DNA of 64,000 bases from an uncultured archaeon (lineage in GTDB: Archaea; Halobacteriota; Methanosarcinia; Methanosarcinales; Methanoperedenaceae): the NCBI GenBank assembly GCA_902386205.1, contig CABMIH010000053.1, positions 1 to 64,000 of the forward strand, written 5' to 3'. The notes beneath the pieces are model-generated. The model was not told the DNA's origin and did not search any database. It saw only the letters and a program-made list of their open reading frames with translations. A program made the position numbers and the translations under genes. Each line of letters begins with the position of its first letter. Positions within the stretch are counted from its first letter, which is position 1. Positions 25,184 through 62,689 of the stretch are shown one piece after another.

Positions 25184-26023
25184 TCACCTTTTTTGATAGA
25201 TTCTTTCCCTCACATCCACAGGGGCAAATAATTCACCTGCCGGACCGACCAGTGTCTCGGTTTTCCCCATAACGAAATATCCGCCCTTATTAAGGGCATT
25301 ATAAAAATTCAAATAAAGCTTTTCCTGCAATTCCTGCTCGAAATATATAGTGACATTCCTGCAGAATATCACGTCGAACCCGAACATCCGGGGGCCGGAA
25401 ATCATATCATGATGCCTGAACTTTAAAAGGCGCCTTAAATCCTCACTTACCTGGTAGTTCGCATCGTCTTTCTTAACAAAAAACCTCTCAAGCCTTTCCT
25501 TATTTATTTTCTCAAGCTGCTTTAACTGGTATATACCGTTCTCCGCTTTTTTAAGGGAATCATCATCTATATCTGTCCCCATGATGGAGATAGAATATCT
25601 TTTCGTTAATCCGCCCAGGAATTCACGCACCAGGATGGCAATGGAATACGGTTCCTCGCCGTTTGAGCAGCCGGCGCTCCATATTTTGAGGGTCTTGTCT
25701 TCAGCTTTAGACCTGACCAGTTCAGGAAGCACGGTTTTACTGAATATTTCGTAAGTCTCAGGGTTCCTGAATAGTTCTGTGACGTTAACTGTCAATGTAT
25801 CCTTTAATTTCTGCAATTCAGCCTCATTCTTCATGATAACGTCCATATATTCCTTATATGAACCCGACTGGTTCGCCCGCAGCCTGACCGCAAGCCTCCG
25901 CTTCAAATGAGCCTGTTTATACTGGTCGCAGTTAAAACCGATTTTTTTCTTGATAATGATTTTCAGGTCCGCAAACTCCTTTTCATCTTCATGCAAAACG
26001 AGAGGGTCTGCAAAATTCGTCAT
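25184..26023 (-). CDS. cheR: Chemotaxis protein methyltransferase CheR
   Basis: CheR uses S-adenosylmethionine to methylate glutamates on receptors. The N-terminal helical domain (HLKRRLAVRLRANQSGSY) is followed by TLTVNVTELFRNPE, the SAM-binding IWSAGCSNGEEPYSIAI, MGTDIDDDSLKKA, DVIFCRNVTIYFE and YFVMGKTE. At 279 residues it is full length. Its ATG overlaps the cheA stop by four bases (26020-26023). Confidence 0.96.
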   Translation of the reverse strand: MTNFADPLVLHEDEKEFADLKIIIKKKIGFNCDQYKQAHLKRRLAVRLRANQSGSYKEYMDVIMKNEAELQKLKDTLTVNVTELFRNPETYEIFSKTVLPELVRSKAEDKTLKIWSAGCSNGEEPYSIAILVREFLGGLTKRYSISIMGTDIDDDSLKKAENGIYQLKQLEKINKERLERFFVKKDDANYQVSEDLRRLLKFRHHDMISGPRMFGFDVIFCRNVTIYFEQELQEKLYLNFYNALNKGGYFVMGKTETLVGPAGELFAPVDVRERIYQKR

Positions 26024-27996
26024 AACAATGTCCCCACATCAAGAATAAGCGCCACGTTCCCGTCACCCAGTATGGTGGCGCCTGCAAATCCTTTTATTCC
26101 TTTAAGAAGGCTGTTGTCAAGTTTCTTGATTATTACTTCCTGCTGGCCCACGACCTGGTCCACCACAAGTCCCACGTTGCTGCCCCCGCGCTCCACCACT
26201 ACCACGATCAGTTCTTCAGTGCCATTTGTATTAATCCCAAACAGCCTGTGGAGCCAGATTATAGGCAGTACCTCCCCCCTCATCAATATGACCTCTTCCC
26301 CTTTTATGGTCTTTATCATGTCTTTTTTGATCGCCAGGTCCCGTATCACATTAGTGATCGGTATCGCATAGATATCCTTGGCGACTTTCACCATGAGGGA
26401 GCGTATGATCGCTACTGTAAGGGGCAATTTAAGAATGAGCTTTGTGCCCTCCCCTATCTTTGACTCAAGTTTTACTGAGCCTCCAAGGGATTCAATTTTT
26501 GTCCTGACAACATCCATCCCGACCCCGCGTCCTGAAACATCGGTCACTTTCTCAGCAGTACTGAAACCTGCCATGTAGGACAGGTTAAGCGCCTCGTTAT
26601 CCGTGAGCTTTGCAGCCTCCTCAGTTGTCATTAATCCCTTCTTTACTGCGGTTTCCCTGAACTTGCGGGGATCCATCCCTTTGCCGTCATCAACAGCTTC
26701 TATTGCTACATAATTTTTCTCGCGCCTTGCAGTCAGTATGATCCTGCCTTTGGGATTCTTGCCGGCTTTTTCCCGTTCCTGGGGAGATTCTATCCCATGG
26801 TCCACACAGTTCCTGAGAATATGGACAATGGGGTCCCCTACCTCATCCAGTACAGTCCGGTCAAGCTCGATATCGCCGCCTTCCAGGATAAGTTCTATTT
26901 CCTTACCCTCTTTTTTGGCAAGATCCCTTACCATCCTGGGGAAACGGTTGAATATCTGGTCAATCGGCACCATCCTTGAAGCCATTATCTCTTCCTGAAG
27001 GTCGTTAGTAAGGCGGTTCAGGCTTGCAAGGGACTCTTCAAGGACATCAAGTTTATGCACTGTTGCAAGCTGCGTCAACCGTATTTTATTTATGACAAGT
27101 TCCCCGACCAGGTTCATCAACGAATCGAGCCGCTCGATACTGACACGCACGCTCTGGACGCTCTTTACAACGGTTTTATTGCTATCGCCTTCGCAGGTTT
27201 TTTGTTCGATCTTCATTTTGACCTGTGTTTCCACATGGGTATCCACAGGTTTTGCTTCTACTCCTGACACATCCGAGGTCTTTTTTACGGCTTCTTCTAA
27301 TTTTTTAGCATCCTCGCCGGTCGATATCATGACCGTAAATACCCGGTCAAATTTTTCATCTTCAATATCTTTAACCGGCGGTGTTGTCTCCACTATCTTC
27401 CCTAACTCGGAAAGATTTCTCATGACGACAGTTGCCCGGGCCGATTTAAGGAGACAGGATTCCTGAAGCGTGACCGTTACATTGAATACAGTACCGGTCT
27501 CCCCGGAGTTTTTCTGTTCATTGGCCACAGATGCAACCTCTGGTGTGGCAGTTTCAGGATTCTCTGTGGCTTTTGCCTCAGTTGCTGCCGGTTTTTCATC
27601 TTCATGTACCGGCGCGTCCGTTCCTTTTGACAGAGACTGGAGCCTGTCACGCAGGGAAGAAATATCAAACTGGGAAGATTGTTCCGGGGCTTCCACCATT
27701 TTTTCAAGGTTATCAAGCACTTCGAACAGCAGGTCCACCCCGGAAGGGTCAAGTACCATCTCATTCTTACGTACCCTGTCCATCAGATTCTCCATATCAT
27801 GAGTAAGCTCTGCGATATTGGAATAACCCATGGTAGCCGACATGCCCTTGAGCGTATGGGCTGCCCTGAACATCACATTGATCGTTTCACTGTTTTTCTG
27901 GTCCTTCTCAAGGCTCAAAAGTGCATCATTCATCGATTGCAGATGCTCTGCTGCTTCAACCGCATACATTTCTTTATATTCGGACATATCGTTCAT
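26020..27996 (-). CDS. cheA: Chemotaxis histidine kinase CheA
   Basis: CheA is the central kinase; it autophosphorylates and passes phosphate to CheY and CheB. Domains in order: P1 HPt with FRAAHTLKGMSATMGYSN (phospho-His about H47); acidic Ala/Glu-rich linker; P2 at about residues 165-250; P3 dimerisation helices (SVRVSIERLDSLMNLVGELV); P4 ATPase with N-box HILRNCVDHGIES, VDDGKGMDPRKF and GRGVGMDVV; P5 CheW-like regulatory domain at about 520-658. 658 residues is a usual size. It is part of the cheY-B-A-R-C-D operon, which itself contains no cheW. Confidence 0.97.
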   Translation of the reverse strand: MNDMSEYKEMYAVEAAEHLQSMNDALLSLEKDQKNSETINVMFRAAHTLKGMSATMGYSNIAELTHDMENLMDRVRKNEMVLDPSGVDLLFEVLDNLEKMVEAPEQSSQFDISSLRDRLQSLSKGTDAPVHEDEKPAATEAKATENPETATPEVASVANEQKNSGETGTVFNVTVTLQESCLLKSARATVVMRNLSELGKIVETTPPVKDIEDEKFDRVFTVMISTGEDAKKLEEAVKKTSDVSGVEAKPVDTHVETQVKMKIEQKTCEGDSNKTVVKSVQSVRVSIERLDSLMNLVGELVINKIRLTQLATVHKLDVLEESLASLNRLTNDLQEEIMASRMVPIDQIFNRFPRMVRDLAKKEGKEIELILEGGDIELDRTVLDEVGDPIVHILRNCVDHGIESPQEREKAGKNPKGRIILTARREKNYVAIEAVDDGKGMDPRKFRETAVKKGLMTTEEAAKLTDNEALNLSYMAGFSTAEKVTDVSGRGVGMDVVRTKIESLGGSVKLESKIGEGTKLILKLPLTVAIIRSLMVKVAKDIYAIPITNVIRDLAIKKDMIKTIKGEEVILMRGEVLPIIWLHRLFGINTNGTEELIVVVVERGGSNVGLVVDQVVGQQEVIIKKLDNSLLKGIKGFAGATILGDGNVALILDVGTLL

Positions 27997-32877: not shown

Positions 32878-33570
32878 TCATGAGACTCCTGAGATGTCTA
32901 TCATTACCCCGGCTTTAGCTTCGACCTTGAAACCGAACATGCTTGCAACCTGGACCTCGGGGCGGGCGTATTTGTTTATTATGAGTGTCCTTCGGATATC
33001 TGTTCCAAGCTGCCTGAGTTTCAATGTGAGAAGTATATCGGCAGCATCTTTGAACTCTGTGCTTATACCAGGTGACAGTTCTGTACTGTCCATGGTCAGG
33101 ATAATGGTCTTTTGCACGCCGGTCAATTTCTTGAAAAACGAGATAAGTTGCAGGCTTTTTTCTGCTTCGGGACTATAGCGTATAAGCGCAGAGAGAGTAT
33201 CTATTATTATAACGTCTTTTTCAAACAGCCCCGCTGCCCCCATAAGCCGCTGGATGAAATCGATCCTTGGTTTTGATTCCTTAAGCAGAGGATATGCCGG
33301 GATATAGAGAAGTTCTCCTTTCAGGAGTTTGAGCCCTATCGGGTAATCCAGGGAATTCATCTGCCTGATGAAATTTTTCGTTGTAAGTTGTGTTGAAATA
33401 TAAGTGACCGTATTTTTATTATCAAGGAGACCAAAAGCGATCCTCTGGCTTATGGCGCTTTTGCCGCTTCCTGTAGGGCCATCCAGAACCACAAGTGCAC
33501 CTTTGGGGAAGCCGCCCCCAAGCATCGGGTTTATCTCGTCCCTGTCCAGTGGAAATGAATATAATGCCAT
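32878..33570 (-). CDS. arlH: Archaellum regulatory ATPase ArlH (FlaH)
   Basis: ArlH is a RecA/KaiC-like ATP-binding protein that docks with ArlI and with the stator ring. The 230-residue protein has Walker A LDGPTGSGKSAISQRIAFG and Walker B DVIIIDTLSALIRYS. Near the end, TLIINKYARPE and FGFKVEAKAGVMIDISGVS are family-like. Three bases separate it from the arlG stop. Its own stop codon overlaps the SD used by arlI. Confidence 0.95.
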   Translation of the reverse strand: MALYSFPLDRDEINPMLGGGFPKGALVVLDGPTGSGKSAISQRIAFGLLDNKNTVTYISTQLTTKNFIRQMNSLDYPIGLKLLKGELLYIPAYPLLKESKPRIDFIQRLMGAAGLFEKDVIIIDTLSALIRYSPEAEKSLQLISFFKKLTGVQKTIILTMDSTELSPGISTEFKDAADILLTLKLRQLGTDIRRTLIINKYARPEVQVASMFGFKVEAKAGVMIDISGVS

Positions 33571-33573
33571 AGC

Positions 33574-34023
33574 TCACCACCTCCTGAATTCGAATTCGTC
33601 ATCGATACCATTACCTGTGATCACTCTGAACTTATGACTGCCGGGATTCAGGGACACGGATGCATTAACCTTCAAAACATCAGTGGCGCGCCAAATGGTA
33701 CCACCCTGGATCACTGTCGTATTAATATTCCCGCCTGTTACTGTCACGCCGTCGATCAGAACCGTTATGCCAGCGGGGGAGAGTTCCTCTTTCCCGGTGT
33801 TTTTCACATAAAATGTATATACTCCGCCATCATACGGGATAGTATCCGGGTCATTGATCACGGTGATGTCTGTTCTCAACTGCTCTGACAGCGCCTTGCT
33901 TCCGATGGTTGCCGCTGTCGAGATAGACTGGACGTTCATGAATATCCCCCCTGCCACGCTTAAAGCTATTATTACAGACACTATGAAGAAGATCAGGTGA
34001 GATGCGGCTGTGTCTGCTCCCAT
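33574..34023 (-). CDS. arlG: Archaellum stator protein ArlG (FlaG)
   Basis: A 149-residue protein with one N-terminal membrane helix (LIFFIVSVIIALSVAGGIF) and an extracytoplasmic beta-sandwich, typical of ArlG. ArlG forms filaments that, with ArlF, tie the motor to the S-layer. The soluble domain includes VYTFYVKNTGKEELSP and VLIDGVTVTGGN. AGGTGA lies upstream of the ATG at 34023. It follows arlF by ten bases. Confidence 0.92.
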   Translation of the reverse strand: MGADTAASHLIFFIVSVIIALSVAGGIFMNVQSISTAATIGSKALSEQLRTDITVINDPDTIPYDGGVYTFYVKNTGKEELSPAGITVLIDGVTVTGGNINTTVIQGGTIWRATDVLKVNASVSLNPGSHKFRVITGNGIDDEFEFRRW

Positions 34024-34033
34024 TCAATATCAC

Positions 34034-34444
34034 CTATGTGATGGCGTAATCAGATGCGCCGTTAGCGGTTATTAGTTTTACCCTTTTGCCAGTTACCCCG
34101 TTAATGATCGTAACATTGATAGGGCTCCTGGGGGCCCATACACCCTGGCTTGATACTGAAAAAGATGTAAAGAACGTTCCATCATAAATGACATTCAGCT
34201 TGCTTGAATTAAGTGTCACAGAGCCGTTGTTGTAAACCGTGAGATCAATATCACTGATGCCGCTCACCTGGGAGTTCGTTATCACTATTTTAGTGTTCAA
34301 TTTATCTTCCTGCATATCATTAAGGCTTTTTTTAGCCTCCAGTACCCTTTGATTCGATAGGTTGGCAAGAGGATAAAATATCGTGGCCAGGTACATAAAA
34401 GAAGCAGCGAATATTATCACGGCAGCGGAAGTGGAAAAACCCAT
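34034..34444 (-). CDS. arlF: Archaellum stator protein ArlF (FlaF)
   Basis: ArlF is the S-layer-binding stator partner of ArlG. It starts MGFSTSAAVIIFAASFMYL with one membrane helix, then SLNDMQEDKLNTKIVITNSQ and a beta-sandwich (DIDLTVYNNGSVTLNSSKLN). The ATG at 34444 has a GGGGGT SD and gives 136 residues. A 15-codon longer in-frame ORF (34489) would overlap the archaellin gene and lacks an SD, so it is not used. Confidence 0.92.
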   Translation of the reverse strand: MGFSTSAAVIIFAASFMYLATIFYPLANLSNQRVLEAKKSLNDMQEDKLNTKIVITNSQVSGISDIDLTVYNNGSVTLNSSKLNVIYDGTFFTSFSVSSQGVWAPRSPINVTIINGVTGKRVKLITANGASDYAIT

Positions 34445-34457
34445 ATAACCCCCGCTG

Positions 34458-35087
34458 TTATGGATATAGCTGCACGAACCTGTAAACACCGTAGGAGTTT
34501 GGTGTGGTTATCTCAAGGTTCACTGCCTGGCCAAGTTCCTGGTTCAGTGATAGCCAGATAGTTTTCCTTGTAGGTAGTGTGACCGGGGAAATGGACCCTG
34601 GACTTACCGTGATGGCAACAAGGTCACCGCTGTTCAGTACAGGTGTTGAGACGTTGAATGAACCATCTTCATCCCTTACCGCCGCGGCAGTAAAAAAGCG
34701 GCTACCAGCGCCCGTACTTGAATAGTTGAGATCGTACTTATAATCTTTATCCATTATAGTTATAATCACCTGTCTTAAGTCTATGGATGTTGTGCCAACG
34801 TCTGGTTTGATACGGATTATCAAACTCTGGATGCTGTCATTAACAGAACCACTCGAATCAGTCCTGTTCCCGAGCACCTGGTCCACGATGATGTTGGATG
34901 ATATCTGCTGGGTTGCCTCTTTGCTTGTCTTTGTGGCTTTCTGCTGGAGCGCTCCTGTTGTATATATCAACACTGCCGCAGCTACTGCCGCTACAAGCAC
35001 CATTGATATGAAAATAATGAGCGTACCTACGCCTATATCGCCGCTCTCATTGTTTTTCAGGCAATTCCTGTTTGCTTTCATGCTCAA
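34458..35087 (-). CDS. Divergent archaellin, possibly a minor or basal subunit
   Basis: The class III signal peptide ends [25 protein letters not shown], the ArlK cleavage and filament-core helix of archaellins. The 209-residue product is clearly less similar than the three MKTG/MKTR archaellins upstream are to each other, notably after residue 70. It has no promoter of its own in the 36-base gap, so it depends on read-through from 35124-35726, past a hairpin at 35113-35132. It starts the arlF-G-H-I-J set. A minor, hook-like role is inferred from position and low expected dose. Confidence 0.88.
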   Translation of the reverse strand: MSMKANRNCLKNNESGDIGVGTLIIFISMVLVAAVAAAVLIYTTGALQQKATKTSKEATQQISSNIIVDQVLGNRTDSSGSVNDSIQSLIIRIKPDVGTTSIDLRQVIITIMDKDYKYDLNYSSTGAGSRFFTAAAVRDEDGSFNVSTPVLNSGDLVAITVSPGSISPVTLPTRKTIWLSLNQELGQAVNLEITTPNSYGVYRFVQLYP

Positions 35088-37479: not shown

Positions 37480-38112
37480 TCAAGCGATTAAACAATCTTT
37501 CTTGAAAGCTTCTAATTCTCTGTGTTCCCTGTCAATCTTTATTTTCAGGGCTTCAAGCTCACGCATAATGCCAGTTTCATTTCTGGCTTTCCTGTCGGGG
37601 TAAAGCTGGCGCATCATAATGAAAAGTTTCCTGTCGCTGATGCTCTGCCTGAGCAAGCGGATATTTTTTTCTAAAAGAGCCCTGTCCCTTTCATTGAATC
37701 CCTTTACTGTCTCGATACAGTTTTCAACAAGAGCTGGGATTTCCAGGGCATCTCTTACAGCCATATAAAGACAGTCAACAGTAACAGGTTTCATAAGGTA
37801 GTCTGAGACCATGGACAAACGCGTGAAATCATCCATGCCCGGGATTTTTGAGGTAACAATCACCACTGGAATATCAGGTTCTGATTCCTTTATCTTTCCA
37901 ACCAGTTCCCAGCCGTCCATATCTGAAAGTTCAAGATCAAGCAGGATCATGTCGGGCCTGTCCCGTTTCAACGTCAACAGGCAATCCTTTCCCGTATATG
38001 CCGTGTTAATTATGTATTTTTCAACATCCATGAGCAGCATTTCTGCAAAAAGGTCTGCAATATCGGGTTCGCTGTTTACGATAAGTAAGTATTTTAACTT
38101 TTTATTGCTCAT
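37480..38112 (-). CDS. Response regulator with C-terminal helical domain
   Basis: Residues 1-125 are a receiver domain: YLLIVNSEPDIADLFAEMLL, phospho-Asp in DMILLDLELSDMDGWE, switch Thr in VVIVTSKIPGM and the Lys in YLMKPVTVD. The acidic pair at the start is reduced to NSEPD (Glu and Asp kept). Residues 125-210 are alpha-helical and charged (RDRALLEKNIRLLRQS, ending in a coiled coil) with no DNA-binding motif that I recognise. It sits between the archaellins and the motility-linked unknown genes, so a signalling role in motility is likely. Its own promoter lacks the regulon operator. Confidence 0.85.
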   Translation of the reverse strand: MSNKKLKYLLIVNSEPDIADLFAEMLLMDVEKYIINTAYTGKDCLLTLKRDRPDMILLDLELSDMDGWELVGKIKESEPDIPVVIVTSKIPGMDDFTRLSMVSDYLMKPVTVDCLYMAVRDALEIPALVENCIETVKGFNERDRALLEKNIRLLRQSISDRKLFIMMRQLYPDRKARNETGIMRELEALKIKIDREHRELEAFKKDCLIA

Positions 38113-38250: not shown

Positions 38251-38919
38251 TTATTCTGCTTTTACAAGGATCACACCGTTCTGGTCTGGCATTTTTTCAG
38301 TGTTATCACATAAATATGTGTATATCGATTGCTGGGCATCTTCAGAACAGGAGGCGTTTGAGAACTTCATGGATATCGATGAGGGATACAGCAACAGCTT
38401 GATTATTTTCTGGGGGTTCTTATTGTTCGAAAGATACATCGATATCAATATGGCTGCAAAATTATTTATTTCCGGGTCAGTACCCGTTACCTGGATTGAG
38501 ATCTGGTCATCGCCGCTGTCAACAGACACAGTAGTTGGCCAGTTGAGGATAGAGAGCTCTTCGTTGATTATTTTATTCAGGCTGTTCGTATCATAGACAT
38601 TGATGTCATTGTGGGGCGCAAAAAGCTGGAGCGTTTCACACATCGGCGGAAGACCATATTTCCTGCTGGCCAGAAGCCACCTGAACATCGTTAACGGGAT
38701 CGTTACACCGTATATCCGGTTTTGTATTTGTTCCCTGACGTGGTTTTTTTCTTTCAAAATGTCTTTTGCCGTTTCAAGGCTTCCCATGTTCTCGGTCACA
38801 AAGCCTGTGAAGTCAATTATATCCCTCATTGCCGCCGAAAGGTTGCCCTGATGTTTTTTTAGCAACGGTTCAAGCAGTTTTAGATGGGCATCGCTTATTG
38901 ATACGTTCTTTCTTAGCAT
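38251..38919 (-). CDS. Unknown protein with ribbon-helix-helix-like N terminus (short paralog)
   Basis: The first 40 residues (RKNVSISDAHLKLLEPL, then HQGNLSAAMRDIIDF) read as strand-helix-helix, the pattern of ribbon-helix-helix DNA-binding domains (KNVSIS strand, two helices with the GNLSAAMR turn). The remaining 180 residues match no family I know. They contain two weak hydrophobic stretches and an alpha/beta pattern (TVSVDSGDDQISIQVTG) shared in outline with the paralog at 39127. AAAGGTG before the ATG at 38919 serves as SD. Placed within the motility region, it is a candidate regulator. Confidence is high for a gene, moderate for the fold. Confidence 0.75.
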   Translation of the reverse strand: MLRKNVSISDAHLKLLEPLLKKHQGNLSAAMRDIIDFTGFVTENMGSLETAKDILKEKNHVREQIQNRIYGVTIPLTMFRWLLASRKYGLPPMCETLQLFAPHNDINVYDTNSLNKIINEELSILNWPTTVSVDSGDDQISIQVTGTDPEINNFAAILISMYLSNNKNPQKIIKLLLYPSSISMKFSNASCSEDAQQSIYTYLCDNTEKMPDQNGVILVKAE

Positions 38920-39126
38920 TTATTCACACCTTTTTACACAATTTATGGGTTTGTTATCACAGTCGTTTGTCGCATCATCGCATTATAATGATGATAAGCA
39001 TAATAATTGACTAAAAGTATTTAATATTAACTCGTCAAATATATATACCCCTTATGAAATTAACCCTGAATCCTGAAGGCAGTAGCTAATATCAGCCGGA
39101 ACTCCGGTCTTTTTACCGGATTTCCA

Positions 39127-40179
39127 TCAAATTAAGAAATTTCCCGGTACAGGACTGGCCGGCTTCTCCCCATCATTGCGCACCACCGGGCTCATGACTA
39201 TCAGGTTTTCAGAGCAGCGGGATTGATATAGACTACCATTGGCATTGAGCACGTTCAAAAGGATCTTCTCAATGGCATTTATTGCACGAGAATCCGTATA
39301 ACCGTGGTAAATCTTCAAGGTGTTCTCGTCCACATCGATCCGCTCGACAACGCCCATATATTCATATACTGATTTCATGGTAGAGATAAGAGTTCCTAAC
39401 GGGATATCCCTTATCGGGACCTTATGTATGGCCTCGATGGATGCTGTAAGATAACTTGGCGCCTCTTTTCCCATCAGCAATTCATTATAATAATTTTTCG
39501 GGATGGTTACCATATTGTAATTGGTCTGTTTATACAGGTTAACGATGCATTTCCAGAATTCCATCTTTTTAGAGATTTCCGAGGTAATATCTTCCATCTG
39601 GCCAAAATAATCAACAAGAGATTGTCCCGCAAGATAGGGACTGGCCTGTTTCCTGAAATTGATAGTAATCGTACTGGATGTCCTTTTAAGAGAAACGATC
39701 TCCTGTTTTTTTTGGGAGACCATAAAGGAAGAGATAATACTCCCCAGGAATTCGGTTTTATAAACATTATTCCCGGTCAGCGTGACCCTCGCTTGCGACG
39801 GGTTCATATCATCGTCGTAGTCATATATCCTTACTTTTGTCTGCCAGCTTGTCCCTCCTGCCATTTCATCAAGATAGCCTTCAAATTCCGAAAGCCGTTC
39901 TATCCTGGAGGATTCAAGGAGGCTATTGATGATCTCCTGGTCTATGAGCCTGCCGTGTGCCTGCCTGATGAGCCAGTACATAACTGTTTCAGTGAGATTA
40001 TTATCTGCTTTTAACCCGTCTATAAGCCCTGTTGCTGCATCGGGGTCTTTTATCATTGTATCGATAAGATCGATTATTTCACGCATAGCGGCGCTGAAAT
40101 TTCCCTTATGCTTTATAATAAGGGGCTCAAGTTTTTTCAAATGGACTTTTTCTAATGATATATTTTTCCTGATAGACAT
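39127..40179 (-). CDS. Unknown protein with ribbon-helix-helix-like N terminus (long paralog)
   Basis: 350 residues. The N terminus (RKNISLEKVHLKKLEPL, then HKGNFSAAMREIIDL) matches the paralog at 38251 and the ribbon-helix-helix pattern. It then has a middle region (RIYDYDDDMNPSQARVTLTG, then FRKQASPYLAGQSL) and a C-terminal repeat of a similar alpha/beta module (RIDVDENTLKIYHGYTDS). So it may hold two copies of the module present once in the short paralog. It carries the regulon operator in its own promoter, so it is either a regulon member or an autoregulated controller. GC-paired inverted repeats (CCGGT/ACCGG) lie just past its stop, near 39105-39122. Confidence 0.75.
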   Translation of the reverse strand: MSIRKNISLEKVHLKKLEPLIIKHKGNFSAAMREIIDLIDTMIKDPDAATGLIDGLKADNNLTETVMYWLIRQAHGRLIDQEIINSLLESSRIERLSEFEGYLDEMAGGTSWQTKVRIYDYDDDMNPSQARVTLTGNNVYKTEFLGSIISSFMVSQKKQEIVSLKRTSSTITINFRKQASPYLAGQSLVDYFGQMEDITSEISKKMEFWKCIVNLYKQTNYNMVTIPKNYYNELLMGKEAPSYLTASIEAIHKVPIRDIPLGTLISTMKSVYEYMGVVERIDVDENTLKIYHGYTDSRAINAIEKILLNVLNANGSLYQSRCSENLIVMSPVVRNDGEKPASPVPGNFLI

Positions 40180-40231: not shown

Positions 40232-40261
40232 AATATAAACAAATTTGTGAGGAATGTGTGA
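40232..40261 (-). promoter_or_regulatory. Promoter with TGTGA-N6-TGTGA operator for 39127-40179
   Basis: AATATAAAC (plus, 40232-40240), five bases, TGTGA at 40246 and 40257. About 50 bases upstream of the ATG. A degenerate second version follows at 40288-40306 (CATATAAAT, five bases, TGTGT) with no second unit. Confidence 0.75.
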
Positions 40262-40351
40262 AGCCGGAAAGTTGTGTAAATTGTGTGCATATAAATAAGC
40301 TTGTGTGAAAAGGCTATTTTTAATCGTGATTTCCCTAAGAAAGGTTTTATT

Positions 40352-40382: not shown

Positions 40383-40571
40383 ATGGTTTCAAAGAGTACA
40401 ACTATTTTGAGTTTTTTGCTTCCCATAGCCATGGTATTTGGCACCACGCTTGCCATTTATTTCTACAAATATTCTTCACTGACAATATTATATCTTTTTG
40501 CAGGCGGGGGATTTTTAATATGCCTGTACGTATTGATATTGAGATCGGAGAAAAGAAGGTCGGTCAGGTAG
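40383..40571 (+). CDS. Small membrane protein, two predicted helices
   Basis: The 62-residue ORF has two hydrophobic segments (ILSFLLPIAMVFGTTLAIYF and ILYLFAGGGFLICLYVLIL) and a basic end (RSEKRRSVR), an internally consistent small membrane protein. It is the only plus-strand gene between 14 and 56 kb. A palindromic AT-rich region directly precedes the ATG, so the transcript may be leaderless. No family is recognised. Confidence 0.5.
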   Translation: MVSKSTTILSFLLPIAMVFGTTLAIYFYKYSSLTILYLFAGGGFLICLYVLILRSEKRRSVR

Positions 40572-40592: not shown

Positions 40593-41168
40593 TTATGTAC
40601 CCGGAATCCCAAGCTTGAGCTTTGAACCGCAAAAAGGACACATGATCCAGTTCGGGTCAATGGTTTTCTTGCAGAACTGGCAGATCCTGGAAACTTCTAC
40701 TTTCTTTATCAGCACGTTGCCGCAGTTCGCACAATTTGTCCATACAGGATCAACGGGACTCTGGCATTTTTCGCACGGCTTGTACGTTGAAAGCCATTTC
40801 TGGCCTTTCAAATCCACGCCGCACTTGGTACAGAACTTGTACGAAACAACAAGCCTCTCCCCGCATGACATACATGTCGGAACATCGTGCCTGAGCGTGG
40901 GATTGAGTTTTTTCTTGAGATTCTCAATACACACGCCGGCTTCACGCTTGACCATTTCCTCGGGGTCTTTTTCGGCCAGCCCTTCGATTATTCTTACAAG
41001 CGTCTTTGTGAATTCCGGGATCTCAATATCCATTTTCCCGAAATCAACTTTATCTGTGTTTATTGAAGAAGAAATGTATTTCAGGGTCATGAAACGGGTC
41101 GCCACTATCTTGCTTTCAAGTTTTTCGAGCATGTGACGCCGTTCTTCTTCCGAAAGTATCTTGCTCAT
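40593..41168 (-). CDS. Protein with three tandem zinc ribbons
   Basis: Residues 1-90 are helical and charged (EEERRHMLEKLESKIVATRF). Residues 99-180 hold three zinc ribbons: CMSC with CTKC, CEKC with CANC, and CQFC with CPFC, each pair about 13-16 residues apart. Double zinc ribbon proteins of this kind often act in protein-protein contacts. It is the last gene of a three-gene operon with two membrane proteins and is driven by a regulon-type promoter, so a motility or signalling link is inferred. Function unknown. Confidence 0.8.
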   Translation of the reverse strand: MSKILSEEERRHMLEKLESKIVATRFMTLKYISSSINTDKVDFGKMDIEIPEFTKTLVRIIEGLAEKDPEEMVKREAGVCIENLKKKLNPTLRHDVPTCMSCGERLVVSYKFCTKCGVDLKGQKWLSTYKPCEKCQSPVDPVWTNCANCGNVLIKKVEVSRICQFCKKTIDPNWIMCPFCGSKLKLGIPGT

Positions 41169-41170
41169 AC

Positions 41171-41491
41171 TTATTCTGTAATCTCCTCAAGCGTTATGGC
41201 TAAAAGTATGGCAAATGCGAAATATAATATCAGGATAACAGACAATAATGCCTCAAATATCGGCAGGAAGCCTACAAAAATAACTGTTCCTATCGTTCCG
41301 ACAGCCCTTGTAATACCCAGCAATATGAACAGACTCGTCATGATGATGAAATATTCCCACATAAGGTCCATTGTCTTTAAACCTTTTAGCTCTCTTGAGA
41401 TGCCAACAAGCAGGTTAAAGGACAGGACTGTGCAAATTATGACAATAATCGAAGCTATTGTATTCAGTATTACCAGTAATGCTTCATTCAT
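41171..41491 (-). CDS. Small polytopic membrane protein of the motility-linked operon
   Basis: 106 residues with about three hydrophobic helices (LLVILNTIASIIVIICTVLSF, in family style; FIIMTSLFILLGITRAVG; LLSVILILYFAFAILLAI) and a short charged loop (GISRELKGLKTMD). The ATG at 41491 is chosen for its strong SD (AAGGAGGAAC). A 13-codon longer ORF exists but has no SD. It overlaps the end of the upstream gene by eight bases, and the zinc-ribbon gene follows two bases later. No family recognised. Confidence 0.75.
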   Translation of the reverse strand: MNEALLVILNTIASIIVIICTVLSFNLLVGISRELKGLKTMDLMWEYFIIMTSLFILLGITRAVGTIGTVIFVGFLPIFEALLSVILILYFAFAILLAITLEEITE

Positions 41492-41960
41492 CCTGTTCCT
41501 CCTTGCTGAAAACTGTCCAGGGTTCTTCACGCATCGTTTTTACTATCTTCCGGAGACCAAATAGCAGTATCAGGAATACCATGACCTCTATCACAGGGTC
41601 AAGGATATTCAGGATAACAAGAGTAGTATCGATAACCTCAGTAGATTGTATAGTACTCACGGAATTAGCTATGTTCACCTTCAGGATATTCAATAAAATA
41701 CCGACGGTCATGACAATGTTCCAGAATATCAGCATTATCATGGAAATAGAAAGGTATTTCCAGCTTTCTGAGCCTTTCTCCGCCCTCCTCCAGAGTCCTG
41801 CTGCCAGGTATGTAGAGCCGCATATGCCAAGGAGAAAGGATATCAACCGCACGATAGTACCGCTTGTATCCACACCCTCGATGATGCCATCAGCTTTAAC
41901 GTTCGGCAGCATTAACAAAAAAAGACAGGACAGAGTTAATAACATGATTTTTTTTGACAT
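41484..41960 (-). CDS. Membrane protein with signal peptide, first gene of motility-linked operon
   Basis: 158 residues. A signal peptide (KKIMLLTLSCLFLLMLPNVKA) is followed by four more hydrophobic helices and a cytoplasmic end (KIVKTMREEPWTVFSKEE). No family recognised. The promoter at 42041-42070 has the regulon operator with a good TATA box about 80 bases upstream. The three-gene operon could supply motor or receptor accessory parts. This is inference from shared control and position. Confidence 0.78.
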   Translation of the reverse strand: MSKKIMLLTLSCLFLLMLPNVKADGIIEGVDTSGTIVRLISFLLGICGSTYLAAGLWRRAEKGSESWKYLSISMIMLIFWNIVMTVGILLNILKVNIANSVSTIQSTEVIDTTLVILNILDPVIEVMVFLILLFGLRKIVKTMREEPWTVFSKEEQDE

Positions 41961-42040: not shown

Positions 42041-42070
42041 AATATAAACGGATTTGTGAAAAACGTGTGA
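42041..42070 (-). promoter_or_regulatory. Promoter with TGTGA-N6-TGTGA operator for the membrane operon
   Basis: AATATAAAC (plus, 42041-42049), five bases, TGTGA at 42055 and 42066. Gene orientation is minus, towards 41484-41960. Confidence 0.76.
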
Positions 42071-42144
42071 AGTTGGAAAAACTGATTTATATTCAAAAAA
42101 AATATAATATAATAATATATTGAGATACGTGTCTTATTGCTTCT

Positions 42145-42366
42145 TTATACCAGTCCCCTTACGTTCTTATACCAGTCGCATGTCATACAGGTGCCAAGCT
42201 TCTGGGCATGTGTTCCCTGGACCTTTCCGCCGCAGAAAGTCCCTGCGACCATCCAGCAGTCCTTTCCATTTTTAGGGTAAGCCGGACATATACCCATTTC
42301 ACTTACTTTACTTCCGCCTTTATCTCTTCCGCATTTTTTATGTTCCCAACAATTACTTGCTGCCAT
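42145..42366 (-). CDS. Small seven-cysteine protein (two-CW-type domain)
   Basis: 73 residues that form one Cys-rich domain: C6-W, C12, C27-P, C37-W, C45-GG and the C60-x2-C63 pair, with [11 protein letters not shown] between. It resembles what is annotated as a two-CW domain (my recollection of the name). The same domain is fused to the C termini of MCPs at 53836 and 60503. Seven conserved Cys suggest binding of a metal, Fe-S cluster or haem-like group, or a redox switch. The start at 42366 lies 30 bases from a regulon-type promoter. Confidence 0.82.
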   Translation of the reverse strand: MAASNCWEHKKCGRDKGGSKVSEMGICPAYPKNGKDCWMVAGTFCGGKVQGTHAQKLGTCMTCDWYKNVRGLV

Positions 42367-42395: not shown

Positions 42396-42425
42396 GACTT
42401 AAGAATGATTGTGAAAAAAGTGTGA
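42396..42425 (-). promoter_or_regulatory. Promoter with TGTGA-N6-TGTGA operator for the seven-cysteine gene
   Basis: TGTGA at 42410 and 42421 on plus with the usual spacing. The TATA position (GACTTAAGA on plus, 42396-42404) is poor, so this is the weakest promoter of the set although the operator is exact. Confidence 0.6.
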
Positions 42426-42457
42426 ACCTTTACATATTTTTCCTGGAAACTTCACAG

Positions 42458-53835: not shown

Positions 53836-56067
53836 TTATGTTTTTACTATTTTATACCAGTCGCATACCAGGCACGTATCATGTTTTTGGGCTTGTGTAC
53901 CCTGTACTTTCCCTCCGCAGAAAGTTCCTGCCACCTTCCAGCATTCCTTTCCTTTTTCTGGATAAGAGGGACATATACCCAGTTCTCCTGCCTTGCTTCC
54001 GCCTTTCTCCCTCCCGCATTTCATGAATTCCCAGCAGTTCTTAACGTGATTTTTTTCTATCTGTTTTTTCTTGCCTTTAGTTTTCTCTTCGGGTTTTGCA
54101 GGTTTTCCCCCCATTTCCGCCGGTTTCTTTTCAACCATTTCCATCTTTTTTATTTCCTGCACTGCCGGTTTCTCTTCATCCCTTTGAATTTGTCCAGAAG
54201 TATCCGATTTTGATCTGCCTTTCAATTTCACGACATCTTCCTGCAGCTTATCGGACAATTCCGCAAGTTTCTGTGCAGACATTACAAGCTCCTCCATCGA
54301 CGAAGTCTGCTCTTCCGCAGCAGCCGAAGCTTCCTGGGTGGCGGCTGCGGATTCCTCGCTGATAGTGGATACATCTTCAACAGTGGCTGATATCTCTTCT
54401 ACAGACACGGATTGTTCTTCAGAGGCTGCGGCGATCTCCTGCACCATGGTGGCCACTTCCGCGGCAGCTTTTACTATGCGATCTATGGCAGTGACAGCCG
54501 TCTCAACTGTCCCCGCCCCCTCGGTGACGGTCCTTGTGCCTTTGTCCATGCTCTCAACCGCCTGTTTTGTCCCGTGCTGGATCTCTTTTATCAGTTCGGT
54601 GATCGTACCAGCTGCACTTCTTGATTCTTCCGCAAGTTTCCTGACCTCGTCTGCCACCACTGCAAAACCCCGGCCATGATCCCCTGCCCGTGCGGCCTCG
54701 ATCGCTGCGTTCAGGGCAAGAAGGTTCGTCTGGTCCGCGATAGCGGTTATCACACCTATTATCTCGCCAATTTTCTGTGATTTTGTATCAAGTTCTTTTA
54801 TGACCCTGGATGATGTGTCAACTGTCATCTGAATCTCGGTCATCCTCTTCAATACCTCTTTGGACATGCCGCCCACTTCCTGTGCGGTCTTATCTGCGGC
54901 ATCGGCGCCTTCAGCCGCTTTCTGGGAATTGGCTGAAACCTGCTGGATGCTTTCCGACATCTCTTTCATGGCCCTGCTGATCTCAGCCATCTTGGAGGCC
55001 TGCTGGCTTACGCCCTGTGAGATATCCTGGGATGTGTTTGATATTTGCTCAGTAGCGGCTTTCATCTCCTCGCTTGAAGCCGAGAGCTCAAGCGCTACAT
55101 CGGCGACCTTCCTGGAAGCATAAAGCATGGTATCCACGGGCTTTGTGACAGAACGGGAGGCATATATTCCTATGGCAAGGCATGTTATTATCGTTATCAG
55201 GGATAGCACCGTTACAGTCGCTTTGGCCGTTGAGCTCATTTTCTGGGTTTCCGCTCTCACCACAGATTCGTCGGCTATGGCATCGGTTATGAATTCAGCC
55301 ACTATCGGCTCTATCTCATGGACTTTATTTGTAAACTCCGCTTTCTTTGAAATGATCTGGGAATCTATATTTACGAGCTTGTCAAAAGTTGAAACATACA
55401 CAAGGAGCTTGTTATTAATGGTATCTTTGGCGTTTTGTGACAGCTTGCTTGCAGCAATGCGGTCCCTGAGTATTTTTTCATTATCATGCAGTATCTTCTG
55501 GTTATCTGCCCCCCCGCGCAGAATATAATTTTTTTCATCCCGCCGCAGTTCCAGCATACCTGCCATTAACCCGTCATCGTTCTGTTTCTTGATTTCATTT
55601 TCAACATCACGGGCCGCTGTAAGAAGTTCCCCCTGGAGCCCCGAGTTCTCATCCAGTCCTTTTGTTTTTGTAAGCTGGGCAACTTCGAGGAACGGTTTTT
55701 CATATTCCCCAATCAATACTATCACTTTGTCTGCCATCTCCTTTCTTTCAGGAAGGACATCCAGGTTCTTTATATCCCCGGCGTTCTTCTTAACTTCGGC
55801 AGTCGCCGCAGTCACTTTATCAATATAAGATGCATCAAGGCGCACCAGGAAATCTTTCTCCGAGCGCCTTGCCTGGAGCATTTGAGAATTAATTTCATAC
55901 GCCTTTTCTTTTAACGTGACTTCATTTTCCAGTAAGGATTTTGTTTCACTATCAACTGTACCAAGGGTGGTTATGTTCGTTAAGCTCAGGATTATAAGCA
56001 ATATCGTTATAAGCCCGAACACACCCACGAGTTTTTTCCCCAGCGAAATACTCTTTAAATTTATCAT
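53836..56067 (-). CDS. Methyl-accepting chemotaxis protein with HBM-type ectodomain, truncated HAMP and C-terminal seven-Cys domain
   Basis: 743 residues. The helical ectodomain has [30 protein letters not shown] and [16 protein letters not shown] (HBM type). After helix 2 only the first HAMP helix remains ([20 protein letters not shown]); the text then jumps to [14 protein letters not shown], about 45 residues shorter than in MCP 60503. The signalling tip is [21 protein letters not shown] Lys/Glu/Pro linker leads to a final 70-residue seven-Cys domain nearly identical to the protein at 42145. No regulon operator is found upstream; this is the exception among the complete receptors. It is divergent from the UbiA gene. 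Confidence 0.94.
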
Positions 56068-56334: not shown

Positions 56335-57183
56335 ATGTGTATTGATACACCTACTATAAAACTTTTAAGGGCTTCTGTCCTTGTGGCTTTTTCCGGCGCC
56401 TGCAAATTACACATAGCTTTCCTCTTCCTGGATATCGAACCCAAGGTAACTATCTACCTGGCCGGTTTCCTTGTGATCTATGCAACATACACTTTGGACC
56501 GTGCCACTGGAAGCGAAGAAGATAAGATCAATAAAAAAGAGTTCACATCAGCAAGGAAAGATATAGCCCTTGTTTTTTGCCTTGTTTCTTTAGCTGCAGG
56601 TTCCTGGCTTTTTTTACAGGAAGATCTTCTTTTCATCTCTTTTTTGCCTTTTATTATTGGCTATATCTACAGTAAAGGAATACACATGGGACGGATTTCC
56701 CTGAAACTGAAAGGCAACTTTGGCATGAAGAATTTGACGGTCGCCCTTACATGGAGTTCGATCATTTCCGCGATCGTCCTGCGCTGGGTGAGTATCCCGG
56801 TCGTATTATCGTTTGTTTTCCCCCTCTTCGCAGTTAAAAGTTTTATAAATACAGTGATATACGACTTCAGGGATGTTAAGGGCGATTCCGTGGCAGGAAT
56901 AAAGACCCTGCCCATCTTCCTGGGGGAGGGGACGACTCGATCATTACTCCAGTCCATGCACATCATACTGCACCTGTGGATAGCGATCGCCATGTTCCTG
57001 GGCTTTGTAAGACCGGAAATAACCATGTTCATGACGTTAGGACTCACAGGCCTCATATATACCCGGTTTTATACGAGGGCATCCCAAGAAAACGAATCAA
57101 GGTACAAGAAAATTATGCGGGATGTTATCGTGGACGGGGAATTTATCCTGGCTGTAATTCTTGATGCGATCATATCCTTTTGA
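56335..57183 (+). CDS. UbiA-family prenyltransferase
   Basis: 282 residues with about eight membrane helices. The two prenyl-diphosphate sites are YTLDRATGSEEDKIN near residue 52 and VIYDFRDVKGDSVAGIKTLP near residue 175, an Asp-rich pair as in UbiA enzymes. In archaea such proteins make the DGGGP ether lipid or prenylate quinones and haem. This one is shorter than and different from typical GGGP transferases, so the acceptor is unknown. It overlaps the 3' end of the convergent regulator gene by 14 bases. Confidence 0.85.
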   Translation: MCIDTPTIKLLRASVLVAFSGACKLHIAFLFLDIEPKVTIYLAGFLVIYATYTLDRATGSEEDKINKKEFTSARKDIALVFCLVSLAAGSWLFLQEDLLFISFLPFIIGYIYSKGIHMGRISLKLKGNFGMKNLTVALTWSSIISAIVLRWVSIPVVLSFVFPLFAVKSFINTVIYDFRDVKGDSVAGIKTLPIFLGEGTTRSLLQSMHIILHLWIAIAMFLGFVRPEITMFMTLGLTGLIYTRFYTRASQENESRYKKIMRDVIVDGEFILAVILDAIISF

Positions 57184-57952
57184 TCTCTTTTGCTTTTGAG
57201 AGAAAATGATCGAACAGATCCTCACCCCACTTTATGGCCGAACTGTCAGAGCTTTCAAGGTCTTTCTGGGAATCGTACCCCCCGTTCTTAAAGAAGAGCG
57301 ATAAAGAAAAAAAACAATTCGTGACCGTGCCTGCAACTTTAATATCCTCATCAGAAACATACAATCGCTGGCCTGGAAAGCTTAATGTTTTCCTCATCGT
57401 CTCAAGATAATCGTTTTTTGCCCTGTTGAAAACGTCCCTTGTCAGGATCAGGGAAGTCTCGGCTCCGCCCATTGCAAGCTGCAGGAAGAAAGGGGGATAC
57501 TGGGGATGGAATATAGGCGAAACACCTTTGATATGCTTAGATTTTATGAGGGCCTCGACGAATTCCCTGTGGGGCTCAAATATTTCGCTCATTTTGCTTT
57601 CGATCAGAGTGGAGTTCTCAAGCTCATATATCCTGTTCAACAGGTATTGCGGGATAGCTTTGATCTCATGGTCAGTCCAGAAATCCTCATATTTTTCGAC
57701 TATATCTATCGTCCTGGAAAATGAATTAAAAACCTCTGCGATTATCATCCCTATTTCAGTGAGTGCATAAGTCTTACCCTCCTGCCGGACCAGGTTCACT
57801 TCTTCCAGCTTCCTTATCTGCGGGATCATTCCTGCAGAAGTTACTTCAAGAGATTTCCTTATCTCTTCTAATGTTTTCGGGCCGTCTCTCAGGAAAATAA
57901 GAAGGCTTTCCCTTTTCCTGGAATGTGTAATGGCTCCTATCAGTTTACTCAT
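57170..57952 (-). CDS. Winged-helix regulator with FilR1 (DUF1724) sensor domain
   Basis: 260 residues. Residues 1-70 are an ArsR/TrmB-like winged helix (LLIFLRDGPKTLEEIRKSL, VTSAGMIPQIRKLEE, VRQEGKTYALTEIG). The remaining part (YLLNRIYELENSTLIESKMSE, HPQYPPFFLQLAMGGAETSL, RLYVSDEDIKVAGTVTN) matches the methanogen FilR1/DUF1724 domain. These regulators are nearly confined to methanogenic and related archaea. Possible targets are the adjacent palindrome-bearing promoter of the UbiA gene or the receptors; not shown. Confidence 0.87.
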   Translation of the reverse strand: MSKLIGAITHSRKRESLLIFLRDGPKTLEEIRKSLEVTSAGMIPQIRKLEEVNLVRQEGKTYALTEIGMIIAEVFNSFSRTIDIVEKYEDFWTDHEIKAIPQYLLNRIYELENSTLIESKMSEIFEPHREFVEALIKSKHIKGVSPIFHPQYPPFFLQLAMGGAETSLILTRDVFNRAKNDYLETMRKTLSFPGQRLYVSDEDIKVAGTVTNCFFSLSLFFKNGGYDSQKDLESSDSSAIKWGEDLFDHFLSKAKEIKRI

Positions 57953-60502: not shown

Positions 60503-62689
60503 TCAGGTATTTTTCTTGAAAACTTCACAGGTCATGCAGTTGTGCAATTTCGCTTCCGCATCACCCTGTTTTATACCTCCGCACCATGTCCCCTCTATCA
60601 GCCAGCAACGTGTTTCTTTGGAGTTATATGCAGGGCACTTCTGCTGGATCTCATTTTTGCATTTCTTAATATCCCAGCAGCGGATGAACTCGTCTGCGGA
60701 TTTTAGCACAAAGCGCGATGCAGCCATCTGCAGTTCCTCGGAAAGTAGCGCGAGATCCTGGGCAGCTTTCACAAGCTGATCCATCGATGCGGCCTGCTCC
60801 TGTGCCGCTGCCGAAGCCTCCTCTGTGCCTGCCGCTGATTCCTGGCTTATGGCCGAAACTTCTTCTACCGAAGCCGTCACTTCCTCAACAGAGGCGGATT
60901 GCTCCTCTGATGCCGCCGCTATCTCCTGGATCATGTTGGAAACATCCCCTGCCGCTTTGACGACATGGTTGATGGATAAAGCGGCGTTCTCAATGTTTTT
61001 GGAACCTTCACCTACGGTTTTCGTGCCTTTCTCCATGCTCTCGACAGCTTTCTTTGTCCCCTGCTGCACCTCTTTTATAAGCTCTGTGATCTGGTTCGCC
61101 GCGCTTCTTGATTCCTCGGCAAGTTTTCGCACCTCGTCTGCCACCACAGCGAAACCCCTGCCGTGCTCGCCTGCCCGTGCGGCCTCGATGGCTGCGTTCA
61201 GGGCAAGGAGGTTGGTCTGGTCGGCAATATTGGTTATCACGCTTATGATCTCGCCTATCTTCTGGGACTTGCCGTCAAGTTCTTTTATTACTACAGCGGA
61301 GTCATCCACAGTAGTCTGGATCTCACCCATCTTGTTCGCCAGTTCGATTGATATCGTGCCGACTTCCTGGGCCGTCTTATTGGCACCCGCTGCACCTTCG
61401 GCCGCTTTCTGGGAATTGGCCGCCACCTGCTGCACGCTCTCTGACATCTCTTTCATGGCTCTTGCGATTTCCGCCATCTTGGAAGCCTGCTGGCTCACGC
61501 CTTTGGCAATATCCTGTGTTGTGGTGGATACCTGGTCTGTGGCGGCTTTCATCTCCTCGCTTGATGCCGAGAGGTCCTGGGCCGTCGAGGAGACTTTGAC
61601 CGAGGACTCCTGCACTTTGCCAAGGACGTTTTTTAAATTCTCGGTCATGGACCCGATGGCAACTGAAAGCTGTCCCACTTCGTCTTTGGATTCGTTTTTC
61701 ACCTGTACCGTGAGGTCTCCTTCCGCGACTTTTTTGGAGACCCGGAGCATGCTGTCCACAGGTCTTGTAATGGAGCGGGAAATATAGATACCTGCACCAA
61801 GCCCGGCTATGATTGCTATTATTGATAGCACGATAACTGTCATTTTAGAGACCCGGTTAGAAGATGCCATTGCCTCTATGTCGGCAGCCCTCAGGTCCCT
61901 GGCATCTGTTACAATTCCTGCAACCACGGTATCTATCTGGCGCGCAATATTTACAAGTTCTTCCTCTTTTTTATCCCTTGATGAGGATATGCTGACAAAA
62001 TTATCAAAAGTGGCTACGTACTTGTCAAGCTTTGAATTGATCTGGGCTTTCATCTCGGCTGAGGCTTTGCCTTTGGAAACGCTATTTTTTGCACTGTCGA
62101 TAGCATCATGAACTTTAACCTGGTAAGACACATCCTTTCGGATCACATAGTTTTTCTCATGCCTTCTTGCTTCAAGAAGGAGCGTAAGCCCGTCTGTGCT
62201 ACCGGCCTTTTTCAGGTCAACCTCTGCATCGCGCGCCAGGTTTATCAGCTCCCCGTTTATCGCTTCCATTTCCTGTAAACCGATCTTCTTTTGCAGGTCA
62301 ACGATCTCAAGGAAAGTATTCTCGTAACCTGAAGCCATAGCTAAAATACTGTTCGCATCATCCTTTGTTTTCTGGCTCACATCCAGTTCCTGGATATCTG
62401 CTACATCGTTCCTGATACCGCTAACCGAGACTTTTACCTTATCTGCATACTGGAGGTCGCCGCGCATCAGGAAATTTTTCTCATCACGCCTTGCCTGCAA
62501 AAGGTTGATATTGATATCATCCGCTTTTTCAGTGAGGTTCACCTCGTTATCAAGCAGACTATTTGTTCCGGTTTCCATTGAACCAAGTTTTGTGATGCTC
62601 AATGCGGCTACTATTATCAGCAAAAGGATAACGAGCATGAAACCACCTATCAGTTTCTTGCCCAACGACATGTCTTTTATACTAATCAT
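60503..62689 (-). CDS. Methyl-accepting chemotaxis protein with HBM-type ectodomain, full HAMP and C-terminal seven-Cys domain
   Basis: 728 residues. Helical ectodomain ([37 protein letters not shown]), helix 2, a complete HAMP ([38 protein letters not shown]), signalling tip [20 protein letters not shown], and a C-terminal seven-Cys domain ([29 protein letters not shown]) with a shorter first loop than at 42145 and 53836. First gene of a receptor-cheW-receptor operon. Promoter at 62804-62833. Confidence 0.95.

Follow-up and report, generated by a model that had tools for sequence, protein, structure and literature searches.

Three adjoining genes, gA, gB and gC (together gABC), carry the archaellin-type promoter and are co-inherited with the chemotaxis-linked archaellum and CheA in the Methanoperedenaceae, an association that is well supported. 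Our favoured explanation, held with moderate confidence, is that gABC encodes a lineage-specific, membrane-anchored accessory module of this family's archaellum and chemotaxis machine. To our knowledge, the parts list of the archaellum has grown little since the description of the arl operon, and we found no paper describing either the gABC operon or its promoter motif.

A tight three-gene unit in a motility island

The window, by which we mean the whole 64,000-nucleotide stretch of DNA analysed, comes from a Candidatus Methanoperedens species whose nearest relative among the records compared is isolate MnB_21. Reading of its open reading frames places gA, gB and gC in a tight unit at 40593-41960:

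41484-41960, minus strand: gA, 158 aa, with a signal-peptide-like N-terminus, three hydrophobic helices and a conserved tail, PWxxFS
41171-41491, minus strand: gB, 106 aa, ATG start, with three hydrophobic helices and a conserved loop, ISRELKGLKT
40593-41168, minus strand: gC, 191 aa, with a helical N-terminal domain built on an invariant VATRF core, followed by three zinc ribbons

As originally predicted, the genes overlap or abut: gA and gB share 8 nt and a 2-nt gap separates gB from gC, so a single transcript is likely. Comparison with four relatives gave dN of 0.01-0.22 against dS of about 0.3-1.5 where computable, which marks all three as real genes encoding selected proteins, and the triplet is kept in all relatives' loci retrieved; gABC orthologues lie, for example, on NZ_JMIY01000007 near 622 kb.

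By hydropathy, gB has three hydrophobic stretches, in agreement with the three-helix membrane protein proposed for it, and gA has a signal-peptide-like stretch followed by three more. The signal peptide once proposed for gA is therefore plausible but not proven, as gA of the type strain, ANME-2D (L065), apparently starts past that stretch. Homology between gA and gB was rejected by profile comparison (probability 1%), confining their resemblance to layout. The C-terminal half of gC matches a double zinc ribbon above the curated Pfam cut-offs (PF12773 and PF13248, both generic zinc-ribbon models; E 8e-14), scoring 52 bits against a cut-off of 27.3 for the PF12773-type model. Twelve cysteines, invariant in 18 sequences, make up three four-cysteine ribbons, the number predicted.

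Searches elsewhere returned little. There was no significant match to gA in Pfam, NCBIfam, PHROGs or PDB, no family match to gB, and no match to the N-terminal domain of gC in any library searched. Neither gA nor gB matches the stator models NF052590 and NF052591, and Pfam scans of all three proteins found no match to CheF (PF04283) or ArlCDE (PF04659, PF05377), consistent with the view that none is a known archaellum or chemotaxis component. Predicted structures (pLDDT 46.8 for gC and 60.2 for gA) are too weak for fold assignment; a search of PDB structures with the gA model gave nothing at E <= 0.001, and PDB sequence searches with gC and gA gave chance matches or none.

The position predicted for the unit, between motor and receptor genes, is confirmed. 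On one side lie archaellin genes with their own motif copies, arlFGHIJ and cheY/B/A/R/C/D; on the other are seven genes for methyl-accepting chemotaxis proteins (MCPs) and one for CheW. The neighbours needed below are:

26020-27996, minus strand: cheA
32878-33570, minus strand: arlH of the che-linked archaellum locus
33574-34023: ArlG-matching gene of the arl operon
34034-34489: ArlF-matching gene of the arl operon
39127-40179, minus strand: uncharacterised protein of 350 aa, preceded by an exact copy of the motif at 40233-40262; a neighbour of gABC in many genomes
40383-40571, plus strand: conserved membrane protein of 62 aa, encoded between the 39127 gene and gC
42145-42366, minus strand: 73-aa two-CW protein adjoining gA, with its own motif core at 42397-42426

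The stator proteins ArlF and ArlG are, like gA and gB, small, membrane-anchored and encoded in the same locus, but they are separately present in the arl operon, and gA and gB have three hydrophobic helices.

A promoter shared with the archaellins

Alignment of the copies in the window defines a motif consisting of a TCACA repeat, 11 bp apart, directly upstream of a TATA box. The copy before gA is, as predicted, exact:

42042-42071, minus strand: gABC promoter, TTCACAC-N5-TCACAA-N5-TTTATAT, identical at all 20 specified positions and 81 nt before gA

The 19-nt core of the motif occurs 11 times in the window where 0.04 would be expected, and every copy is on the minus strand. Genome-wide, 26 sites turn up when up to three mismatches are allowed; a control with the pattern reversed gives none. 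Six sites are exact, five of them in the window, before three archaellin genes, the 350-aa gene at 39127 and gA. The fla promoter of Methanococcus likewise has sites for an activator, EarA, immediately upstream of its BRE/TATA (PMC5512572), but these are four 6-bp sites, a different layout from the 11-bp-spaced TCACA repeat described here.

The motif stands before gA at <=2 mismatches in 17 of 19 relatives' loci, the exceptions being L066 and the type strain, in which gA is joined to an MCP unit. It is also retained before gA in ten loci of 19-20 kb where gABC lies apart from any arl or che gene; these loci hold 14 sites at <=2 mismatches in a total of 198.8 kb, whereas 100 shuffles gave none. 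Of the ten, six carry a single site, that before gA, and in two of the four double-site loci, viewed in full, the extra site precedes a 39127-type gene. The neighbours in several of these loci, read by eye, are household genes and what we take to be a tRNA ligase subunit. Sister-genus loci (L126, L127) have sites before gA and before a KaiC-like gene adjoining the ArlC-D/E fusion gene, and one with three mismatches before a 39127-type gene. No sites were found in the loci of a second (type-2) archaellum, whose genomes lack gABC.

The motif is also found upstream of a few genes without a known motility role. Outside the motility island, four related small three-helix membrane proteins are each encoded right behind a copy (loci L084, L085, L088 and L089), and the three that were scanned have no convincing Pfam match:

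G000 C65:32169-32564: small membrane protein behind a motif copy
G000 C5:8131-8532: small membrane protein behind a motif copy
G000 C37:5298-5642: small membrane protein behind a motif copy
G000 C57:196179-196517: small membrane protein behind a motif copy

These copies, together with those before other genes outside the island, would fit a passenger role for gABC, with an envelope function unrelated to motility and expression that merely coincides with it. We consider this very unlikely, as gABC is missing together with the type-1 arl/che locus, is syntenic with ArlCDE and receptor genes and, in the case of gC, recurs in a second archaellum cluster. Searching with the motif offers a way to find more motility genes of as yet undescribed role. 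Flagellin genes change in some of the published RNA-seq of Candidatus Methanoperedens, which covers oxygen exposure, electrode growth and Mn reduction (PMC10874420, PMC7082337, PMC11264602).

Co-inheritance with CheA and the che-linked archaellum

Among the genomes surveyed, which include metagenome-assembled genomes of varying completeness, gA is present in 19 of the 31 of the genus, and a gB profile recovers the same 19 plus both genomes of the sister genus. Wide presence of the operon without arl or che genes was looked for but not found: the profile found no gB in the other 217 Methanosarcinia, 13 in the family and 204 outside it, and gC was detected outside the family in four of 394 genomes sampled from the phylum.

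The expected co-occurrence with arl and che genes was found, and it is specific: gABC tracks CheA and the che-linked archaellum type, not the archaellum per se. CheA is encoded by 20 of 21 family genomes with gABC and by 3 of 13 without it (Fisher P 2e-5, phylogeny ignored), and gABC is present in 18 of 19 genomes with the che-linked (type-1) arlH versus none of eight with type-2 (P 4e-6, phylogeny ignored). ArlH above the cut-off is found regardless of gABC, in 18 of 19 genomes with it and 9 of 12 without (P 0.27). One genome, G014, which is 93% complete, has a type-1 arl-che locus, yet no gABC was found in the genome. The type-2 archaellum may represent one clade, in which case independent gains or losses may be few, and the co-occurrence could stem from a single clade-level loss. 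Its eight loci, all in genomes of the genus (L067-L074), have higher ArlH scores and no adjoining che genes, and most have two arlI-like genes. gABC is restricted to a single family and lacking in type-2 archaellum genomes, and so does not qualify as a general component of the archaellum.

In the sister genus, the ArlC-D/E gene is divergent from the KaiC-like gene, and gA-gB-gC follow, with motif sites; in G026, gC adjoins ArlC-D/E. The type strain is arranged differently: its gA, which lacks the motif, lies downstream of cheW and starts soon after an MCP gene's stop codon. This arrangement raises the idea that gABC is an accessory of the chemoreceptor array or its polar patch and not of the motor. 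The two-CW protein points the same way, as it is encoded beside gA in many loci and its domain ends two MCPs, and the association of gABC is closer with CheA (P 2e-5) than with ArlH alone (P 0.27). Set against this, gC lies within the archaellum cluster of a genome without CheA (G417, below), and neither a two-CW gene nor a receptor is close to several of the unlinked gABC copies. On balance we think a purely receptor-side role rather unlikely. In the window, these two domains, at 53842-54039 and 60515-60679, are fused to the C-termini of the chemoreceptors.

CheF and the undetected link to the switch

CheF is the archaeal adaptor that links phosphorylated CheY (CheY-P) with ArlCDE (PMC9126983). 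We found no match to its model, PF04283, in any of 34 family genomes, the source genome included, compared with 29 matches elsewhere in the class; many other CheA-bearing Methanosarcinia also have neither a PF04283 match nor gABC, and a divergent CheF may therefore escape the model. The switch itself is present as an ArlC-D/E fusion gene (contig C5:1046-2149), which rules out replacement of a missing ArlCDE by gABC; this cytosolic motor part, which adjoins gABC in G026 and in the sister genus, is a separate gene in gABC genomes. With CheF undetected though ArlC-D/E is present, the established connection between CheY-P and the ring is undetected in the family.

A rival reading is a stand-in for CheF, with gC held at the membrane by gA and gB and connecting CheY-P to the ArlCDE switch ring. 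Such a gC would fill the same niche as CheF, that of a cytosolic adaptor at the archaellum switch, by different means: CheF is a dimeric PH-domain protein whose tail binds CheY, whereas gC combines a helical domain with three zinc ribbons, has no sequence match to CheF and is accompanied by two membrane partners. The absence of PF04283 matches from this family but not from others of the class, the presence of ArlC-D/E and its adjacency to gABC, and the association with CheA all fit. However, the gC orthologues of G417 and G409 occur without CheA, CheA is present in many other Methanosarcinia with neither a PF04283 match nor gABC, and the response-regulator gene at 37480-38112 and the proteins encoded at 38251-40179 are equally well placed for the task. 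Replacement of CheF by gABC is possible but weakly supported, and we judge it unlikely. If this unlikely reading were true, gABC would be a second, independently evolved link from receptors to archaellum, working without CheF at the ArlCDE switch. The methane oxidisers of Methanoperedens are environmentally important, and gABC offers a concrete candidate for steering in a methane-oxidising family where CheF is undetected; it also makes testable by what route CheY signals arrive at the motor in the absence of CheF.

gC beyond the family

A profile of the gC N-terminal domain matches the four genomes outside the family mentioned above. G417 belongs to another class of the same phylum, and its gC orthologue, 31% identical over 181 aa, keeps all three ribbons. 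Directly after arlB-C-DE-F-G-H-I-J it has an overlapping operon, EarA-methyltransferase-p171-gC. G409 has the same order, methyltransferase-169 aa-gC-CBS, on a short contig, and CheA is absent from both genomes. Two of the 59 genomes of the G417 class have gC, both in G417's own family. A shorter gC relative with one ribbon occurs in G259, a genome with CheA, and has no arl match within 20 kb. A check for a HEAT-like N-terminal domain gave a weak PF13646 match in the G417 orthologue (E 0.034) and a helical model of low confidence. G417 also has a second, diverged gC-like copy with one internal TGA (L147, G417:C1:95701-96195).

That the G417 operon opens with EarA, the archaellum activator, and ends with gC raises the prospect of a regulator or assembly checkpoint in which gC governs archaellum expression or assembly and gA and gB act as its membrane sensor. 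But gC has no recognized DNA-binding domain apart from its zinc ribbons, gABC itself sits under the motility promoter and tblastn found no EarA homologue in the Methanoperedens loci searched, and we regard such a role as quite unlikely.

A possible place at the motor or the receptor cluster

Our preferred reading remains an accessory module, and we infer that its proteins form a complex that docks on the motility machine. With three helices each and cytoplasmic tails, gA and gB would jointly make up a small membrane base, and gC would act in the cytosol as an adaptor, linking this base to the machine through its helical domain and zinc ribbons. Its target may be the cytoplasmic face of the motor, at the level of ArlCDE, or the receptor cluster beside the motor, and the module would serve as a docking or positioning part, or a switch-coupling part, produced in step with the filament. 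We make no choice between the two sides: the G417 context speaks for the motor, and the operon of the type strain, like the two-CW gene, for the receptors. The original proposal of a new accessory complex is supported in its general form, by the promoter kept where gABC is unlinked, the co-occurrence with CheA and type-1 arl, the adjacency to ArlCDE, the receptor-operon fusion of the type strain and the gC orthologue in the G417 archaellum cluster, but not in its specific placement in motor, stator or receptor array, for which the structure models are too weak.

Other genes of the motility island

The products of 39127-40179 and 38251-38919 are related proteins that share an N-terminus and accompany the motif and the type-1 archaellum; they are possible regulators of the motif regulon. 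Their N-termini look by eye like those of ribbon-helix-helix factors that might bind the motif, an assignment for which a PDB profile search gave no support. A FilR1-like winged-helix regulator is encoded among the receptor genes (57170-57952, minus strand).

In three loci (L085:1046-3102, L126:7052-9007 and L127:1199-3137), the KaiC-like ATPase gene and the ArlC-D/E fusion gene point away from each other, and a motif copy lies between them. The 62-aa protein at 40383-40571 is probably an unannotated archaellum protein, as its homologues lie behind arlJ in four type-2 archaellum loci (L067, L068, L069 and L071).
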